Assembly (NCBI GenBank): GCA_030526245.1
Contig: JAUNDD010000009.1
Coordinates: 1 to 64,000 of the forward strand
Origin: Lachnospiraceae bacterium
GTDB lineage: Bacteria; Bacillota; Clostridia; Lachnospirales; Lachnospiraceae
DNA: 64,000 bases
Direction: 5' to 3'
Shown in pieces: positions 5,483 through 58,155 of the stretch; the stretch's first letter is position 1; each line of letters starts with the position of its first letter. Under the pieces are notes generated by a model. That model saw only the letters and a program-made list of their open reading frames with translations. It ran no database searches and was not told the DNA's origin. The translations under genes were made by a program, and so were the position numbers.

Positions 5483-5509
5483 GTTACAGTTCACGCAGTG
5501 AAATGTAAC
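5483..5509. repeat. Family-1 repeat, minimal palindrome (copy A)
   Basis: Arms GTTACAGTTCAC and GTGAAATGTAAC around a 3-base centre (GCA), one mismatch. It equals the two ends of the longer family-1 element joined back to back. Flanking 8-mers match only 5/8, so no clear target duplication remains. Confidence 0.75.
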
Positions 5510-11049: not shown

Positions 11050-11106
11050 GTTAAAGTTCAGGTAATTCGATTCCGCGAGGTGTTTTGCCGCGTAGACAGC
11101 AGACAC
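11050..11106 (+). repeat. Family-1 repeat, truncated left module (copy B)
   Basis: Starts GTTAAAGTTCAGG and keeps TCGATTCCGCGAGGTG and TTTTGCCGCGTA, then diverges before the second arm of the inner palindrome. It is a decayed copy downstream of the NusG-II-like gene. Confidence 0.75.
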
Positions 11107-11633: not shown

Positions 11634-11696
11634 GTTACAGTTCAGGCAGTTCGATTCCGCGAGGCGTTTTGCCGCGTATGCAGCAAAATCCCGAGG
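11634..11696 (+). repeat. Family-1 repeat, left module (copy C)
   Basis: Runs from GTTACAGTTCAGGCAG to CCCGAGG. The inner palindrome has one mismatch. If the right end is set at CCCGAGG, the flanks GTGGTGGC (11626-11633) and GTGATGGC (11697-11704) match 7/8, a possible target duplication. That right end does not match the left one, so this boundary is tentative. Confidence 0.75.
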
Positions 11697-11736
11697 GTGA
11701 TGGCTTTTGCAGTCTGTTCCTAAACAGCAGCGATGA

Positions 11737-13833: not shown

Positions 13834-13957
13834 GAGTCAAATGTGTCTGTTCTGACGCGTTGATTGAATAATGTGTTATAGCGCATCAGAGGGATACTGC
13901 ATAGCAAATGGTTGGCGATGGAGGTATCTGCATCGCTTTCATAGTGAGGAGAATCTA

Positions 13958-15559
13958 ATGAGATGTACTTCAATTAAGCGACGAGGCCTTCTGGCAGCGC
14001 TGACACTGGTGATGGTCCTGTTTTTGATCGTGCCTGTCTGTGCGGCTGAAACGGCCGGATGGAACAAAGCAAAGGATAAGATCTTCTATAATCTGGAAGG
14101 AGAGACCGGGCTGGAAAAGGCAACGGGACTTCAGAAGATCGCAGGCCGGTTCTTTCTGTTTGATGACAACGGGTATTTGAAGACCGGATGGGTCCAGACG
14201 GAAGAGGGCATCTTCTTTTTCAAGAAGACCGGCGCGCTGGGCGTAAAGGGAAGAGCTTACCGCGGATTGCAGAAGATCAACAAGAAGCGCTATTATTTTG
14301 ATCCGCAGACCTGCCGGCTTGTGACCGGTAAAACAGAGGTCAAGCCGGGTGTCGCCTATTACTTTTCCAAGACCGGCGCGCTGGGCGTAAAGGGTGTGGC
14401 GCTGACGGGCAAATGGAAGAAGACCAAGGGACTGTGGAATTATTTCGGTTCTGACGGAAAGATGGCGTGCAGCAAATGGATCACCACCGGCAAGTATAAG
14501 TACTATGTGGATGCCCAGGGCAATCGCCTGGTGAACACGGTGACACCGGATGGCTATCTGGTGGGCAGCAATGGTCGCCGGGTCTCCAACAAGAAGATCA
14601 AGGGTCTGGTGGAGATCAGCGGTAAGACGTACTATTTCTACAAACCGAAAAAGGACTTCATTCGAAACAAGTTCAAAACGGTGAGTGGACAGCGCTATTA
14701 CTTCGGAGAGGATGGAGCAGCTCTGACGGGTCTGCAGAAGATCAAGGGATACTCCTACTACTTCAACGAAAAGGGCGTGATGCAGACCGGAGAGGTCACC
14801 ATCAGTAAGAAGAAATATTTCTTTAAACAGGATGGCAAGCAGCTCATCGGCGGTACCGCGGAGGGTTATACCACGGATGCCAACGGCGTGATCACGGCTG
14901 GCAGTAAAAAGCCGAAGATCCTGGTGATCGCCGGTCATGGACAGGGCGACGCGGGCGCAGTTTCCGGTTCCTATCAGGAGCAGGCCCTGACCCGTGAATT
15001 TGCCAAGCTGATCGTGGCCGAACTGAAAAAAATCGACGGCATCGAGGTGGAGCAGTTTAATCCCAGCTACGATATGTTCCGGCACAACTACAATGCACTG
15101 GCCAATAACGGCGTGAGCATCACCGGAAACGGAGCGAAGGCAGCGGCTGTGAAGAAGGCACTGAAGACGGACCCGGTGATTCCGGATCTGACCCAGTATG
15201 CCTACGCACTGGAGATCCATTACAATGCCACAGCGGTTTCCTTAAAGGATCCGAACGGCAATGGTTCCTATAAGGGCTTCAGCTTCTATGTCAATCAGTA
15301 CAAGCCGGAAGCGAAGCGTAAGGTGGAACGGACCATGATCAACCGTGTGGTGGGTCTTGGCTTTAAGGAATTCGGAAGCGGCATTCATCCCTCCGCTACC
15401 CTGACCAACTGTAAGGTGTTCCAGGAGCTGGGTGTGGATTATGCACTGATGGAGACCGCCTTTATCGATGACGCGGACGACATGCGCTTCTACCAGAATA
15501 ATAAACTGAAGATGGCCAAGGTGATCGCAGAGGTGATCGCAAACGCCTATAAAAAGTAA
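13958..15559 (+). CDS. Secreted N-acetylmuramoyl-L-alanine amidase with choline-binding-like wall repeats
   Basis: 533 residues. Signal peptide 1-30 (hydrophobic core LLAALTLVMVLFLIV, cleavage near VCA-AE). Residues about 55-310 hold aromatic/glycine repeats of the choline-binding/cell-wall-binding type (for example GLQKINKKRYYFD and GLQKIKGYSYYFNEKG). Residues 320-533 are an Amidase_3-type zinc domain with the ligands H in IAGHGQGD, E in ALTREF, H in LEIHYNA and the catalytic E in LMETAFID. It should cleave the amide between N-acetylmuramate and L-alanine in peptidoglycan, outside the cell. Start at 13958 follows GAGGAGA and gives the signal peptide; an upstream extension of 29 residues would not. 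The target of the repeats, choline or another wall polymer, is unknown. Confidence 0.85.
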   Translation: MRCTSIKRRGLLAALTLVMVLFLIVPVCAAETAGWNKAKDKIFYNLEGETGLEKATGLQKIAGRFFLFDDNGYLKTGWVQTEEGIFFFKKTGALGVKGRAYRGLQKINKKRYYFDPQTCRLVTGKTEVKPGVAYYFSKTGALGVKGVALTGKWKKTKGLWNYFGSDGKMACSKWITTGKYKYYVDAQGNRLVNTVTPDGYLVGSNGRRVSNKKIKGLVEISGKTYYFYKPKKDFIRNKFKTVSGQRYYFGEDGAALTGLQKIKGYSYYFNEKGVMQTGEVTISKKKYFFKQDGKQLIGGTAEGYTTDANGVITAGSKKPKILVIAGHGQGDAGAVSGSYQEQALTREFAKLIVAELKKIDGIEVEQFNPSYDMFRHNYNALANNGVSITGNGAKAAAVKKALKTDPVIPDLTQYAYALEIHYNATAVSLKDPNGNGSYKGFSFYVNQYKPEAKRKVERTMINRVVGLGFKEFGSGIHPSATLTNCKVFQELGVDYALMETAFIDDADDMRFYQNNKLKMAKVIAEVIANAYKK

Positions 15560-24052: not shown

Positions 24053-24194
24053 GTTACAGTTCAGGCGGTTCGATTCCGCGAGGTGTTTTGCCGCGTATGC
24101 GGCAAAATCCCGAGGGTTGTAGGCCAAAATCCCATTGCCGAAGGCAATTTGGAATGGATTTTGGCCAGTTACAGTTCACTGCGTGAACTGTAAC
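24053..24194 (+). mobile_element. Family-1 MITE-like element, full length (copy D)
   Basis: 142 bases with three modules. Left: GTTACAGTTCAGGCGG, then TCGATTCCGCGAGGTG and the TTTTGCCGC / GCGGCAAAA palindrome, then CCCGAGGG. Middle: a hairpin GGCCAAAATCCCATTGCC / GGCAATTTGGAATGG... with a TTTGGAA bulge. Right: the palindrome of arms GTTACAGTTCAC and GTGAACTGTAAC. The flanking octamers AATTATTC and AATTATTA match 7/8, as expected of an aged target duplication. It lies between convergent genes. Confidence 0.8.
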
Positions 24195-28455: not shown

Positions 28456-28482
28456 GTTACAGTTCACTGCGTGAACTGTAAC
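28456..28482. repeat. Family-1 repeat, minimal palindrome (copy E)
   Basis: Perfect 12-base arms GTTACAGTTCAC and GTGAACTGTAAC with a TGC loop. It lies in the trpS leader. Flanking octamers GGATAAAG and GCATATAG match 6/8. Reading trpS from an upstream start would wrongly translate this repeat. Confidence 0.85.
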
Positions 28483-31909: not shown

Positions 31910-31975
31910 GTTACAGTTCGGGCGGCTCGATTCCGCGAGGTGTTTTGCCGCGTATGCGGCAAAATCCCGAGGGTT
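31910..31975 (+). repeat. Family-1 repeat, left module (copy F)
   Basis: Runs GTTACAGTTCGGGCGG, TCGATTCCGCGAGGTG, the exact TTTTGCCGC / GCGGCAAAA palindrome, CCCGAGGG and ends GTTAAC. The ending could be a remnant of the right end after loss of the middle. Both flanks contain ATAAAAA, but in an A-rich context this is weak evidence of duplication. Confidence 0.82.
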
Positions 31976-33219: not shown

Positions 33220-33325
33220 AAACCTCTCCATTGTCAATTGAATTTTACAAAAGTGTAACAAAAGTATTGCAGAGTTAAAGATACCATAGAATTGGGGGGC
33301 AGGCAATGAGATTCTGGCTGGCCAC

Positions 33326-33386
33326 CTGGGATTTTTGCCGCGTACGCAGTAAAACACCTCGCGGAATCGAGTTGCCTGAACTGAAC
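33326..33386 (-). repeat. Family-1 repeat, left module, inverted (copy G)
   Basis: Read on the minus strand: GTTCAGTTCAGGCAAC, TCGATTCCGCGAGGTG, a decayed inner palindrome, then CCCAGG. Its outer end on the plus strand contains TTGCCT, which forms the -35 box of the metY promoter candidate. Confidence 0.75.
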
Positions 33387-36594: not shown

Positions 36595-36753
36595 GGGAGC
36601 TCCTTTCTCGGGGCATGCAGGACCTGCCTTGTTCTCCGGAGAATAGCACCGGATAACGAGGGCCTGCTTCGATCGCAAAAAGAAAAGCACAGCCTGCTGG
36701 TCTTTGGTGCGGCTGGATGTGAATGATTTCGCCGCATACATGATAGCATATTC

Positions 36754-36973
36754 GTTACAGTTCAGGCTATTTGATTCCGCGAGGTGTTTTGTCGCGTATG
36801 CGGCAAAATCCCGAGGGTTGTAGGCCAAAATCCCATTGCTACAGATCGTATTCGCGAAGCGAATAGGATGGACCGAGTGCCATCGTGCGAAGCACGATTT
36901 GGAATGGCACTCGTCAAGTAAAGGCAATTTGGAATGGATTTTGGCCCGTTACAGTTCATACGTGAACTGTAAC
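36754..36973 (+). mobile_element. Family-1 MITE-like element with internal hairpin insert (copy H)
   Basis: 220 bases. Same left, middle and right modules as copy D, ending with arms GTTACAGTTCA and TGAACTGTAAC. About 80 extra bases (about 36840-36920) sit at the tip of the middle hairpin and form two more hairpins: ATTCGC-GAA-GCGAAT (36850-36864) and GAGTGCCATCGTGC / GCACGATTTGGAATGGCACTC (36875-36912), which repeats the TTTGGAA bulge. The octamer GCATATTC occurs exactly on both sides (36746-36753 and 36974-36981), a perfect target-site duplication. Confidence 0.85.
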
Positions 36974-37012
36974 GCATATTCTGTTATGAAAACAATCTGG
37001 ATGGAAGTGGCA

Positions 37013-37123: not shown

Positions 37124-38185
37124 ATGAAAAAGACAAAGTATGTGGCTTATGTCGGAACATATACCAATGGAAGCAGCAAGGGTATCCATGTATATGATGT
37201 GGATGTGGAAAATGGATTGCTGACTGAACGAAATGTGGTTCCGGTTCACAATTCATCGCATATTACAAAGTCGGATAACGGAAAATATCTTTATTCTATT
37301 GCGGATGAGGGTGTAGAGGTGCTGAAGATCGAAAAGAACGGCGATCTGACGCCCATTAATAAAGTAGGCATCAACGGCATGCGCGGTTGCTATCTCTCAA
37401 CGGACCATACCGGACGGCTGCTCTTTGTGGGCGGTTACCATGATGGCAAGGTGACGGTGGTCCATACGCACCGGGACGGACGCCTTGGTTCGATCATGGA
37501 CGGCGTCTTCCACAAGGGTCTGGGCAGCGTGGCGGAGCGAAATTTCCGGCCCCATGTCAGCTGCGTTCTGCCGACGCCGGATCACAAATATCTTTGTGCC
37601 GTGGATAACGGCGTGGACCAGGTGAAGATCTATAAGGTGGACGAGGTGCGCGGTAAGCTGACGCTGTATGATATCCTGCGCTGCAAGCTGGAATCGGGTC
37701 CCCGTCTCATGACCTTCAGCCAGGATGGCCGTTTTGCCTACATCAACTGCGAGCTGACCAACACCATCAATGTCTATGCCTACGACGGAACAGGCAAGAC
37801 GCCGAATTTTGAACTTCTGCAGGAGATCGAGACGGTCTTTGACCGGGATGAGGTCAGCAGTGCCTGCTGTGCCTTGAAGATCGACGCTACCGGCCAGTAC
37901 GTTTTCACCTCCAGTGCCGGAGAGAACACGGTGGGCATCTTTAAGATCGATCCGGAGACCGGCCTGCTGACCAAGGTCTGCATCCTGCCCATCAGCGGCG
38001 GTTACCCCAAGGATGTGGATCTGCTGCCGGACGGTCATACCATGGTGGTATTGTGTCACGAATCCAACTACATCCGTTTCTTTAATGTGGATTACGAGAA
38101 AAAGTGCTTTGTGATGAAAGGAAAGCAGATCCCGGTGGAGACGCCGAACTGCATTCTGATCTCGTCCTATGAGGTGGAAGAATAA
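37124..38185 (+). CDS. Lactonase family (YkgB/Pgl-like) beta-propeller protein
   Basis: 353 residues, seven-bladed beta-propeller of the 6-phosphogluconolactonase (PF10282-like) family. Characteristic stretches: YVGTYTNGSSKGIHVYDVD at the start, RPHVSCVLPTPDHKYLCAVD near 143, and SGGYPKDVDLLPDGHTMVVL near 300. Some members hydrolyse 6-phosphogluconolactone; others are uncharacterised lactonases. No pentose phosphate gene is adjacent. No signal peptide, so cytoplasmic. TTGGAGGA precedes the ATG at 37124. Confidence 0.82.
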   Translation: MKKTKYVAYVGTYTNGSSKGIHVYDVDVENGLLTERNVVPVHNSSHITKSDNGKYLYSIADEGVEVLKIEKNGDLTPINKVGINGMRGCYLSTDHTGRLLFVGGYHDGKVTVVHTHRDGRLGSIMDGVFHKGLGSVAERNFRPHVSCVLPTPDHKYLCAVDNGVDQVKIYKVDEVRGKLTLYDILRCKLESGPRLMTFSQDGRFAYINCELTNTINVYAYDGTGKTPNFELLQEIETVFDRDEVSSACCALKIDATGQYVFTSSAGENTVGIFKIDPETGLLTKVCILPISGGYPKDVDLLPDGHTMVVLCHESNYIRFFNVDYEKKCFVMKGKQIPVETPNCILISSYEVEE

Positions 38186-44077: not shown

Positions 44078-44196
44078 ATATACTTTTTGAAACGCATACA
44101 CCGAGGCACGTTCCATGTCTGAGGCCGAACGACCGCGTCAAGCGCCTTTGCAGGCGCAGGGACCGCGCCTCGGCACACGAGTTTCAAAAAGTATAT
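44078..44196 (-). repeat. Family-2 inverted-repeat element (copy 1)
   Basis: Perfect 16-base terminal arms ATATACTTTTTGAAAC and GTTTCAAAAAGTATAT, 119 bases overall. Inside, CCGAGGC / GCCTCGG forms a second stem level and GCGCC-TTTGCA-GGCGC a third, so the element can fold into one long branched hairpin. Its minus-strand sequence (CGCTTGACGCGGTCGTTCGG, CCTCAGACATGG) matches copy 2 at 57813. No target duplication is evident. It ends 35 bases before the zinc-finger gene. Confidence 0.8.
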
Positions 44197-44231: not shown

Positions 44232-44903
44232 ATGAAGGAAAAGATCAAAAAGCCCGGCAGGGGCTGCATCGACTGTGTGCAGGCGGAGCGCATGATCCGC
44301 CTCTATCTGGAGGATCGGTTGTCGGCAGCGGAAAGAGAGCGCTTTATTGAGCACGTGGCCCGCTGCGAGTCGTGCCGGGGAGAGCTGGAGATCGATCTGG
44401 CGATATATCAGGCTCTGTCAGAGGATGGAAAGCCGGAGCATAAGTGCAGCTACGACTTTGAGAAGCTGGCGATCGAGCATCTGGAGCAGTCGCGGCAGCA
44501 GGTGCGCTCACAGCGGCGCTCCAGAAAGCTGGAGCGGGCCACGCTGACACTGGCGGTGCTGGCCCTGGTGGTGATCGGTGCTGTCTGGGCGGGAATCCGT
44601 TTCTTTGGAGAACATGAGACGGTACGCAGGTATGCTCAACCTTTCTTTCCGCATATGTATGAAAAAACAGGGGAGGCTGTGACGGAAGGAGAGACACCGC
44701 AGCAGGAGACAGAGGCTGTGACAGAAGGGGAGTCACTGCAGCAGGAGACAGAAGCTGTGACAGAAGGGCTGACGGAGCCGGACCGGTCAGATGAAAAGAA
44801 TGAAGAACGGACAGAAGAGACAGAAGAACCGAAGGAACGTTTGAAGGAGCAGAAGGCGAAGGAACAGTCGGCTTCTGATACGGAGGGAAAGCAACATGAG
44901 TGA
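44232..44903 (+). CDS. Membrane-anchored zf-HC2 protein (anti-sigma-factor-like)
   Basis: 223 residues. N-terminal putative zinc-finger of the anti-sigma type: Cys 15, then HVARCESC with His 41, Cys 45 and Cys 48. One membrane segment spans about 105-127 (LTLAVLALVVIGAVWAGIRF), and the extracellular tail is acidic with an imperfect repeat of EAVTEGE(T/S)xQQET. This is the build of an ECF anti-sigma factor, but no sigma factor gene is adjacent, so its partner is unknown or it has another role. The RBS is weak (GTGAGATAAG). It overlaps polA by 8 bases. Confidence 0.68.
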   Translation: MKEKIKKPGRGCIDCVQAERMIRLYLEDRLSAAERERFIEHVARCESCRGELEIDLAIYQALSEDGKPEHKCSYDFEKLAIEHLEQSRQQVRSQRRSRKLERATLTLAVLALVVIGAVWAGIRFFGEHETVRRYAQPFFPHMYEKTGEAVTEGETPQQETEAVTEGESLQQETEAVTEGLTEPDRSDEKNEERTEETEEPKERLKEQKAKEQSASDTEGKQHE

Positions 44904-56314: not shown

Positions 56315-56426
56315 ATTACAGTTCAGGTGGCTCGATTCCGCGCGGTGTTTTGCCGCGTATGAGGCAAGATCCAGAGGGTTGCAGGCCAAAACCCCGAGAA
56401 GTGCAGTTCATGGCGTGATCTGTCAC
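56315..56426 (+). repeat. Family-1 repeat, decayed full-length copy (copy J)
   Basis: Left module ATTACAGTTCAGGTGG, TCGATTCCGCGCGGTG and TTTTGCCGC; a shortened middle starting GCAGGCCAAAACCCC; right module GTGCAGTTCATGGCG / TGATCTGTCAC. All three modules are recognisable but mutated. It overlaps the last codons of the tmcAL-like gene. No target duplication is evident. Confidence 0.72.
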
Positions 56427-57812: not shown

Positions 57813-58155
57813 TATACTTTTTGAAACAGTTCAATTGCACTGCAAAGTCGCTTGACGAGGTCGTTCGGGCGCAGGGCCCAATGCCTGAGGGAAAGCGAAC
57901 ACTGGCGAGGCTTCCGTCGTAGTATGTGTATCAAGTTCGTAGAACTTGATATGTAGCCGCAGCCCATTCGCCGTAGGCGAATTTGCATGGGCTGCCGGTT
58001 CCACTTCAGCACGTTAGCTGAGCAGGCGGAGACTTGTTTGAGCGAAGCGAGTTGTCGGGAGCCTGCTCAAATAGGCGCGTGCAAGCTGCAGGAAACGAGC
58101 ATTCGTGAGCGACCTCAGGCATGGACCGCGCCTCGGCATAATCATATTAAAAAGA
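57813..58155 (+). repeat. Family-2 element with nested hairpins (copy 2)
   Basis: Starts TATACTTTTTGAAAC and keeps CGCTTGACGAGGTCGTTCGG, then CCTCAGGCATGG and CGCCTCGGCATA; the right end is decayed (ATATTAAAAAGAAAG). Relative to copy 1 about 200 extra bases sit between TCGTTCGG and CCTCAGG, containing three hairpins: ATCAAGTTC-GTA-GAACTTGAT (57930-57950), GCAGCCCATTCGCC with bulged partner (57959-57995), and TGAGCAGGC / GCCTGCTCA (58019-58069). It fills the gap between divergent tmcAL and the GDPD gene, which otherwise shows no gene. Confidence 0.75.

Follow-up and report, generated by a model that had tools for sequence, protein, structure and literature searches.

A probably non-coding MITE family of Lachnospiraceae with 8-bp target duplications, ends close to those of ISBst12-like IS66 elements and lone palindromes that are probably its deletion remnants

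Introduction

What kind of repeat occupies positions 36754-36973 of a 64-kb stretch of Lachnospiraceae DNA (the window, the whole stretch analysed here), what may have moved it, and how do its many smaller copies relate to it? The repeat, copy H, is 220 bp long, starts with GTTACAGTTCA and finishes with TGAACTGTAAC, which are inverted ends, and is framed on both sides by the octamer GCATATTC. A sequence-only reading of the window had claimed both features, and reading the letters confirms them (Table 1). The right end is the outer half (36963-36973) of a palindrome whose inner half repeats the left end directly; one match to a terminator consensus falls on this palindrome, against 0.5 expected. 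The window corresponds to contig C12 of a 1.51-Mb MAG (35 contigs, 60% complete).

Results

Copies in the window

Table 1. Parts of copy H and further copies of the repeat in the window.
Feature	Position	Strand	Basis
Target duplication, left copy, GCATATTC	36746..36753		direct reading
Copy H left end, GTTACAGTTCA	36754..36764	+	direct reading
Left-module hairpin, TTTT-stem-AAAA, flanked by CGCGAGGTG and CCCGAGG	36787..36808	+	folding and letters
Compound second hairpin; closing arms GGCCAAAATCC (36823-36833) and GGATTTTGGCC (36936-36946)	36823..36946	+	letters
Inner hairpin, tip GCGAAGC	36850..36864	+	letters
Inner hairpin, tip GCGAAGC	36882..36898	+	letters
Copy H palindromic right end, 26 bp	36948..36973	+	letters
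Target duplication, right copy, GCATATTC	36974..36981		direct reading
Copy D, complete, 142 bp; flanks AATTATTC / AATTATTA, 7/8	24053..24194	+	letters, flank comparison
Lone 27-bp palindrome; flanks 5/8	5483..5509		flank comparison
Lone 27-bp palindrome; flanks 6/8; upstream of trpS domain	28456..28482		flank comparison, profile match
Lone 27-bp palindrome; flanks 4/8; first base is last base of lactonase stop codon	38185..38211		letters
Left module, truncated	11050..11094	+	sequence similarity
Left module alone	11634..11698	+	sequence similarity
Left module alone	31910..31975	+	sequence similarity
Left module alone, inverted	33325..33384	-	sequence similarity
Longer copy, decayed; flanks 2/8 or 4/8 by choice of end	56315..56426	+	sequence similarity

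The ten places listed earlier as copies each carry some part of the element, but their completeness differs: only copies D and H are complete, three are palindromes, four are left modules and one is decayed. Copy H alone has an 8/8 flanking match in the window. The element interiors are rich in hairpins and no protein match was seen in them, although mechanical ORFs of at least 200 aa cross five of the ten copies. At 28456 and 33325, the profile match of the overlapping ORF begins downstream of the repeat; at 36754, a pseudouridine synthase domain lies far within the ORF; at 38185, the covering ORF is antisense; and at 56315, NCBIfam gave no match for the covering ORF, while antisense ORFs there match Pfam. 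From this we infer that all ten copies are intergenic, as had been proposed, the mechanical ORFs notwithstanding.

The window holds other repeats as well: a 40-bp inverted repeat adjoining tRNA-Leu (44078-44196), which has GGACCGCGCCTCGGCA in common with 58119-58154; a 39-base unit present three times head-to-tail, of frame-compatible length (44673-44789); and a frame with repeats of glucan-binding or choline-binding type, resembling streptococcal surface proteins (13871-15559).

Copy number and target duplications

Merged similarity matches place sequence similar to copy H or D at no fewer than 48 sites of the MAG, and at least 61 once 21 perfect palindromes are added. The pattern GTTACAGTTC occurs 57 + 60 times in the assembly, against 3 + 2 times for its reversed form, which, together with duplications above the level of swapped flanks, shows that the repeat exceeds chance.

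For the duplications, the 8 bases on each side of every end pair were compared with each other and, as a control, with flanks swapped between copies; since the catalogue of end pairs tolerates two mismatches per end, many of its rows are old or mispaired. In the MAG, flanks match at 7-8 of 8 positions in 14 of 37 long pairings (swapped control 5 of 1332), in 9 of 32 lone 26-27-bp palindromes (control 1 of 992) and in 1 of 25 palindromes with a nearby partner end. Four of the five control matches of long pairings are 8/8 and probably stem from one insertion paired in several ways. The same level was reached in other genomes by 20 of 43 lone palindromes (control 0 of 1806) and 20 of 49 long pairings (control 1 of 2352). 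A separate run gave 36 elements of 38-300 bp with 7-8/8 flanks, and 6 of 20 further places, chosen by end positions in genomes of the family, have 6-8/8 flanks. Aligning the flanks, a check suggested by the sequence-only reading, therefore reveals many independent duplications, with octamers that differ from copy to copy, so that flanking duplications are present well beyond copy H.

Locus L017 contains a nested insertion (duplication 7/8). Removal of the insert together with one 8-mer restores an in-register copy of module A with 55 of 66 matching positions, whereas 42 of 66 match in a control with 7 bases removed. The short element thus combines terminal inverted repeats with a constant 8-bp target duplication at several sites, as MITEs do, and the earlier interpretation as a transposed MITE is borne out by these duplications and the nested insertion. 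We conclude that the repeat is genuine, mobile and apparently non-coding, and the evidence supports its description as a MITE that duplicates 8 bp of its target.

Distribution

Copy H matched none of 60 relatives, 12 of them from the same genus. The search with copy D, also suggested earlier, succeeded in its own genome, with many sites, but in the same genus gave a single 28-base match (E near 1e-3) in 2 of 12 genomes. An exact palindrome scan of GTDB contigs returned 45 stretches, mostly from named Lachnospiraceae MAGs; Fusicatenibacter, which appears repeatedly below, belongs to this family, and one match each in Flammeovirga and Chitinophaga look like chance. Within the window's family, 40 of 397 genomes carry at least 20 matches to GTWACAGTTCA, a tally counted by eye from a table and including one genome (G235) with 12 control matches. 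The palindrome pattern had no match in IMG/VR. The MITE family is widespread in Lachnospiraceae, a point absent from the sequence-only reading. A literature search for the end letters, bacterial palindromic MITEs, Lachnospiraceae MITEs and IS66/ISBst12 MITEs, covering mainly openly available papers, returned no description of the family.

Interior hairpins

The 142-bp type consists of the left end, a module in which a hairpin stands between CCGCGAGGTG and CCCGAGG, a second compound hairpin and the palindromic right end. A 142-bp element of Lachnospiraceae bacterium S19M_St_40 has the identical first-module plan with different stems, those of Ca. Fusicatenibacter merdavium and F. intestinigallinarum measure 133-134 bp, and other genomes have further interiors, part of them without a palindromic right end. 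Several Lachnospiraceae genomes share a plan in which paired ends enclose one hairpin whose loop is conserved and another whose loop is short and of GNA type, usually with the palindromic right end, while the letters of the stems vary in compensating pairs.

Four elements folded far more stably than their shuffles as DNA (z −7.5 to −8.5), and RNA folding gave z −6.8 to −8.8. An alignment of 13 second-type elements, drawn from five genomes, showed two-sided changes in 13 of its 37 pairs, and 93.2% of its cells were paired; none of 500 shuffles matched any of five measures and slid partners gave 1-6 two-sided pairs, with rows that are related to one another and a structure derived from one of them. 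Compensating changes can arise without selection when one arm is copied onto the other in replication; both selection and such arm-to-arm copying fit the covariation. The heptamer GCGAAGC, a very stable DNA mini-hairpin, was found on either strand 18 times in 5127 element bases against 5 times in 26345 flanking bases, the copies being non-independent. Above the gathering score, Rfam found one tRNA in the window and nothing in the repeat; the best score inside copy H was a sub-threshold match to GA-cis RNA (36876-36911, 21.5 against 34.7 bits, E 0.028), and a scan of five other loci yielded a single tRNA plus two matches below threshold. We think it doubtful that selection acts on the folded strand, DNA or RNA, be it through mobilisation or through a function in the host; if it did, the interior would be more than passive filler.

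Lone palindromes

Copy D without the 115 bp between its two GTTACAGTTCA repeats is exactly the 27-bp palindrome. The direct repeats, 11 bp here, measure 13 bp in Ca. Fusicatenibacter merdavium, where deletion between them turns the 134-bp copy into a 28-bp palindrome; of 22 matching palindromes in loci L129-L172, counting the right ends of long copies, 18 have this form. Because the left end recurs in direct orientation as the inner half of the palindromic right end, a lone palindrome would be a favoured product. For the 115-bp deletion, 11 of the 26 possible positions in copy D lie inside the repeat already, so the identity is expected under deletion and yet is no proof of it.

Removing 71 bp from copy D gives exactly the 71-bp element L021, which has TGTA where the two parts join and GATAAGAG on each side; 90-bp copies fit a deletion at 93-94%; in a 142-bp relative, GTTGCAG repeats lie 52 bp from each other; and no single deletion explains a 189-bp copy. 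The module-A list provides examples only, as copies with identical inner sequence were dropped from it and some sites are doubled on the other strand. The smallest copies, of the 27-base class, are probably remnants of longer copies that lack the middle, which is new beside the sequence-only reading.

Candidate transposases

That reading had noted that an 8-bp duplication is common to several IS families, and we indeed find it in ISBst12-like and three-gene IS66 elements alike. It had also held that the helper could not be named, which is too cautious: the MITE ends suggest a transposase of the ISBst12-like IS66 branch.

A PF03050 search of the window's MAG found one three-gene IS66 with the right end CCGGTTACGCTTAC. 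In end-rich relatives, it found a divergent group with L240 (581 aa, with a small upstream frame) and L229 (truncated by the contig end), which score above the Pfam IS66 cut-off and below that of NCBIfam. Complete inverted ends, GTTACTTTTCACGGGG and GTTACTGTTCACACCC, were found for both L240 and L247; no 8-bp duplication was seen on these Lachnospiraceae copies, the flanks of L240 agreeing at 4/8 only and L247 stopping at a contig edge. Of 50 plasmid records related to L240, three were examined (ISGst1, ISGka4 and a Planococcus element), each with an 8/8 duplication and ends that are GTAACTATTCA-like or GTAACTACTTA. PMC12898284 assigns ISDge4 to the ISBst12 group and gives its ends as GTAACTGCTCAGCA/GTGACTACTCAGCA and its repeat as 8 bp long.

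Comparing 11 bases of each end against GTTACAGTTCA/GTAACAGTTCA, L247, L229 and a phage contig score 10, L240 and ISGst1 9, ISGka4 9 and 8, and the Planococcus element 7; L253 scores 11, as an end alone, its gene not seen. Three-gene IS66 ends score 6, 7, 7, 7 and 8, so that the branches overlap (7-11 and 6-8). The three-gene IS66 of G095 (L273, ends GTAAACGCCC) has an 8/8 duplication in the one copy examined; 8 bp alone therefore separates no branches and the ends do so only partly. Tree building set the three-gene transposases (100/100) apart from the L240 group (100/99) as two separate clades, whereas the joining of the L240 group to ISGst1 and the deeper joints are left unsettled. The L240 protein shares 41-45% identity with L229, L247 and the phage piece, 25% with the ISGst1, ISGka4 and Planococcus proteins and 17% with the IS66 of the window's MAG.

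The MITE has the ends (GTWAC..TTCA) and 8-bp duplication of ISBst12-like elements but encodes no transposase; it therefore does not belong to the IS66 elements and could at most be mobilised by one of them. Three-gene IS66 elements resemble the MITE in ends that start with GTAA; they differ in continuing as GTAAGCG, GTAAACG or GTAACCG, the first two of which are not found at the MITE ends. Because of these different ends, we rejected three-gene helpers, including that of G000. The best fit to the MITE ends is the divergent, ISBst12-like branch. Likeness between MITE and IS is confined to the ends: interior comparisons exceeded z 3 in 3 of 110 cases, which gives no support to MITE interiors being deleted IS interiors.

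The L240 protein search matched 4 of 80 genomes, namely 3 of 46 end-rich (one match a fragment) and 1 of 34 end-poor ones; the ISBst12-like transposase thus does not track the copy number of ends. Neither this transposase nor an autonomous partner with matching ends was found in the window's 60%-complete MAG. A MITE does not strictly need a partner, as helpers can be lost, and MAGs frequently miss multi-copy IS elements; the missing transposase therefore weakens the connection to the ISBst12-like branch and does not cancel it. End-rich genomes and their neighbours supplied 26 IS66 loci; in six of these an end-like sequence matches with no more than one mismatch, only that of L229 at the expected position of an element end. 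A search of IMG/VR for relatives of the L240 transposase gave four pattern matches and no confirmed one. End pairs 1473 bp (G407) and 1658 bp (G065) apart were rejected as autonomous elements, having ordinary genes between them.

Some further observations concern these loci. Motifs resembling TTATCCACA/TGTGGATAA, which we take to be DnaA-box-like, lie in L229 (190-360), L240 (2377-2510, reverse strand) and near the end of L253; in these ISBst12-like elements they occupy the left part, ahead of the genes. In G235, contigs C25, C29, C40, C110, C112 and C129 (L203, L278, L215, L216, L279, L280) start near-identically with a GGGGTATCTGAACTGTTAC end, suggesting a multi-copy element with MITE-type ends that collapsed in assembly; the body of this presumed repeat was looked for and not found. 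In G063, MITE-type ends surround other interiors (L189 1480-1641 and L188 303-557), one with GTCATTCTGAGCGAAGCGAAGAATC.

Discussion

With a probability of roughly 0.7, we consider copy H to be a complete MITE with ISBst12-like IS66-type ends that was moved in trans with an 8-bp duplication, and of which many copies were later deleted in place. An ISBst12-like transposase would act in trans on the MITE ends and cut the target with an 8-base stagger, whose repair would yield the duplication. Inserted copies would then lose their middle by deletion between short direct repeats, leaving a lone 26-28-bp palindrome with the target duplication still around it, like a solo LTR. We infer the identity of the transposase and the in-place nature of the deletion from the ends and the letters of the remnants.

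The lone palindromes could instead be mobile themselves, the transposase moving two abutting ends. They are abundant, near-uniform within each genome and frequently have perfect duplications, and genomes whose long copies have no palindromic right end likewise contain duplication-flanked elements of 40-42 bp and 26-29 bp. However, deletion of a long copy yields letters identical to theirs, and in mechanistic terms two ends of 11-13 bp, 2-5 bases apart, would leave little space for them to meet; we regard independent mobility as unlikely, if a serious contender. That a RAYT or IS200/IS605-type enzyme spread them as REP-type palindromes is extremely improbable: being short, intergenic and of high copy number is REP-like, but the 8-bp target duplications at many sites contradict such spread, as to our knowledge this enzyme class makes none.

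Slightly less credible than self-mobile palindromes is a mover from another transposase family with 8-bp duplications, unrelated to IS66; IS1595, IS6 and others are such families. Most end-rich genomes are without an ISBst12-like transposase, and one of them, G319, has an IS256-type transposase (L230), but neither GTTACAGTTCA nor GTAACAGTTCA occurs at that locus with up to one mismatch. Of nine genomes searched, IS256 is absent from six (the window's own, G061, G062, G063, G065, G066) and ISL3 from eight; with matches in G064, G067 and G068 only, and in G064 only, respectively, both were rejected as helpers.

The family can be set beside several known systems. The ISBst12 group of IS66 (ISGst1, ISGka4, ISDge4) is alike in GTAACTATTCAGCC-like ends and 8-bp duplications; it codes for a transposase, whereas the MITE seems to code for nothing, and the interiors are unrelated. 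REP elements are lone intergenic palindromes like the 26-28-bp copies, which differ in carrying 8-bp target duplications and in having longer parents. Pneumococcal BOX elements are by description modular, structured and intergenic like the MITE, with different ends and modules.

The finding ties widespread intergenic repeats of gut Lachnospiraceae to a plausible, barely studied branch of transposases, and offers a simple origin for REP-like lone palindromes, which may be MITE remnants deleted between their own direct repeats. Both ideas, the helper branch and the origin of the palindromes, are testable in cultured strains.
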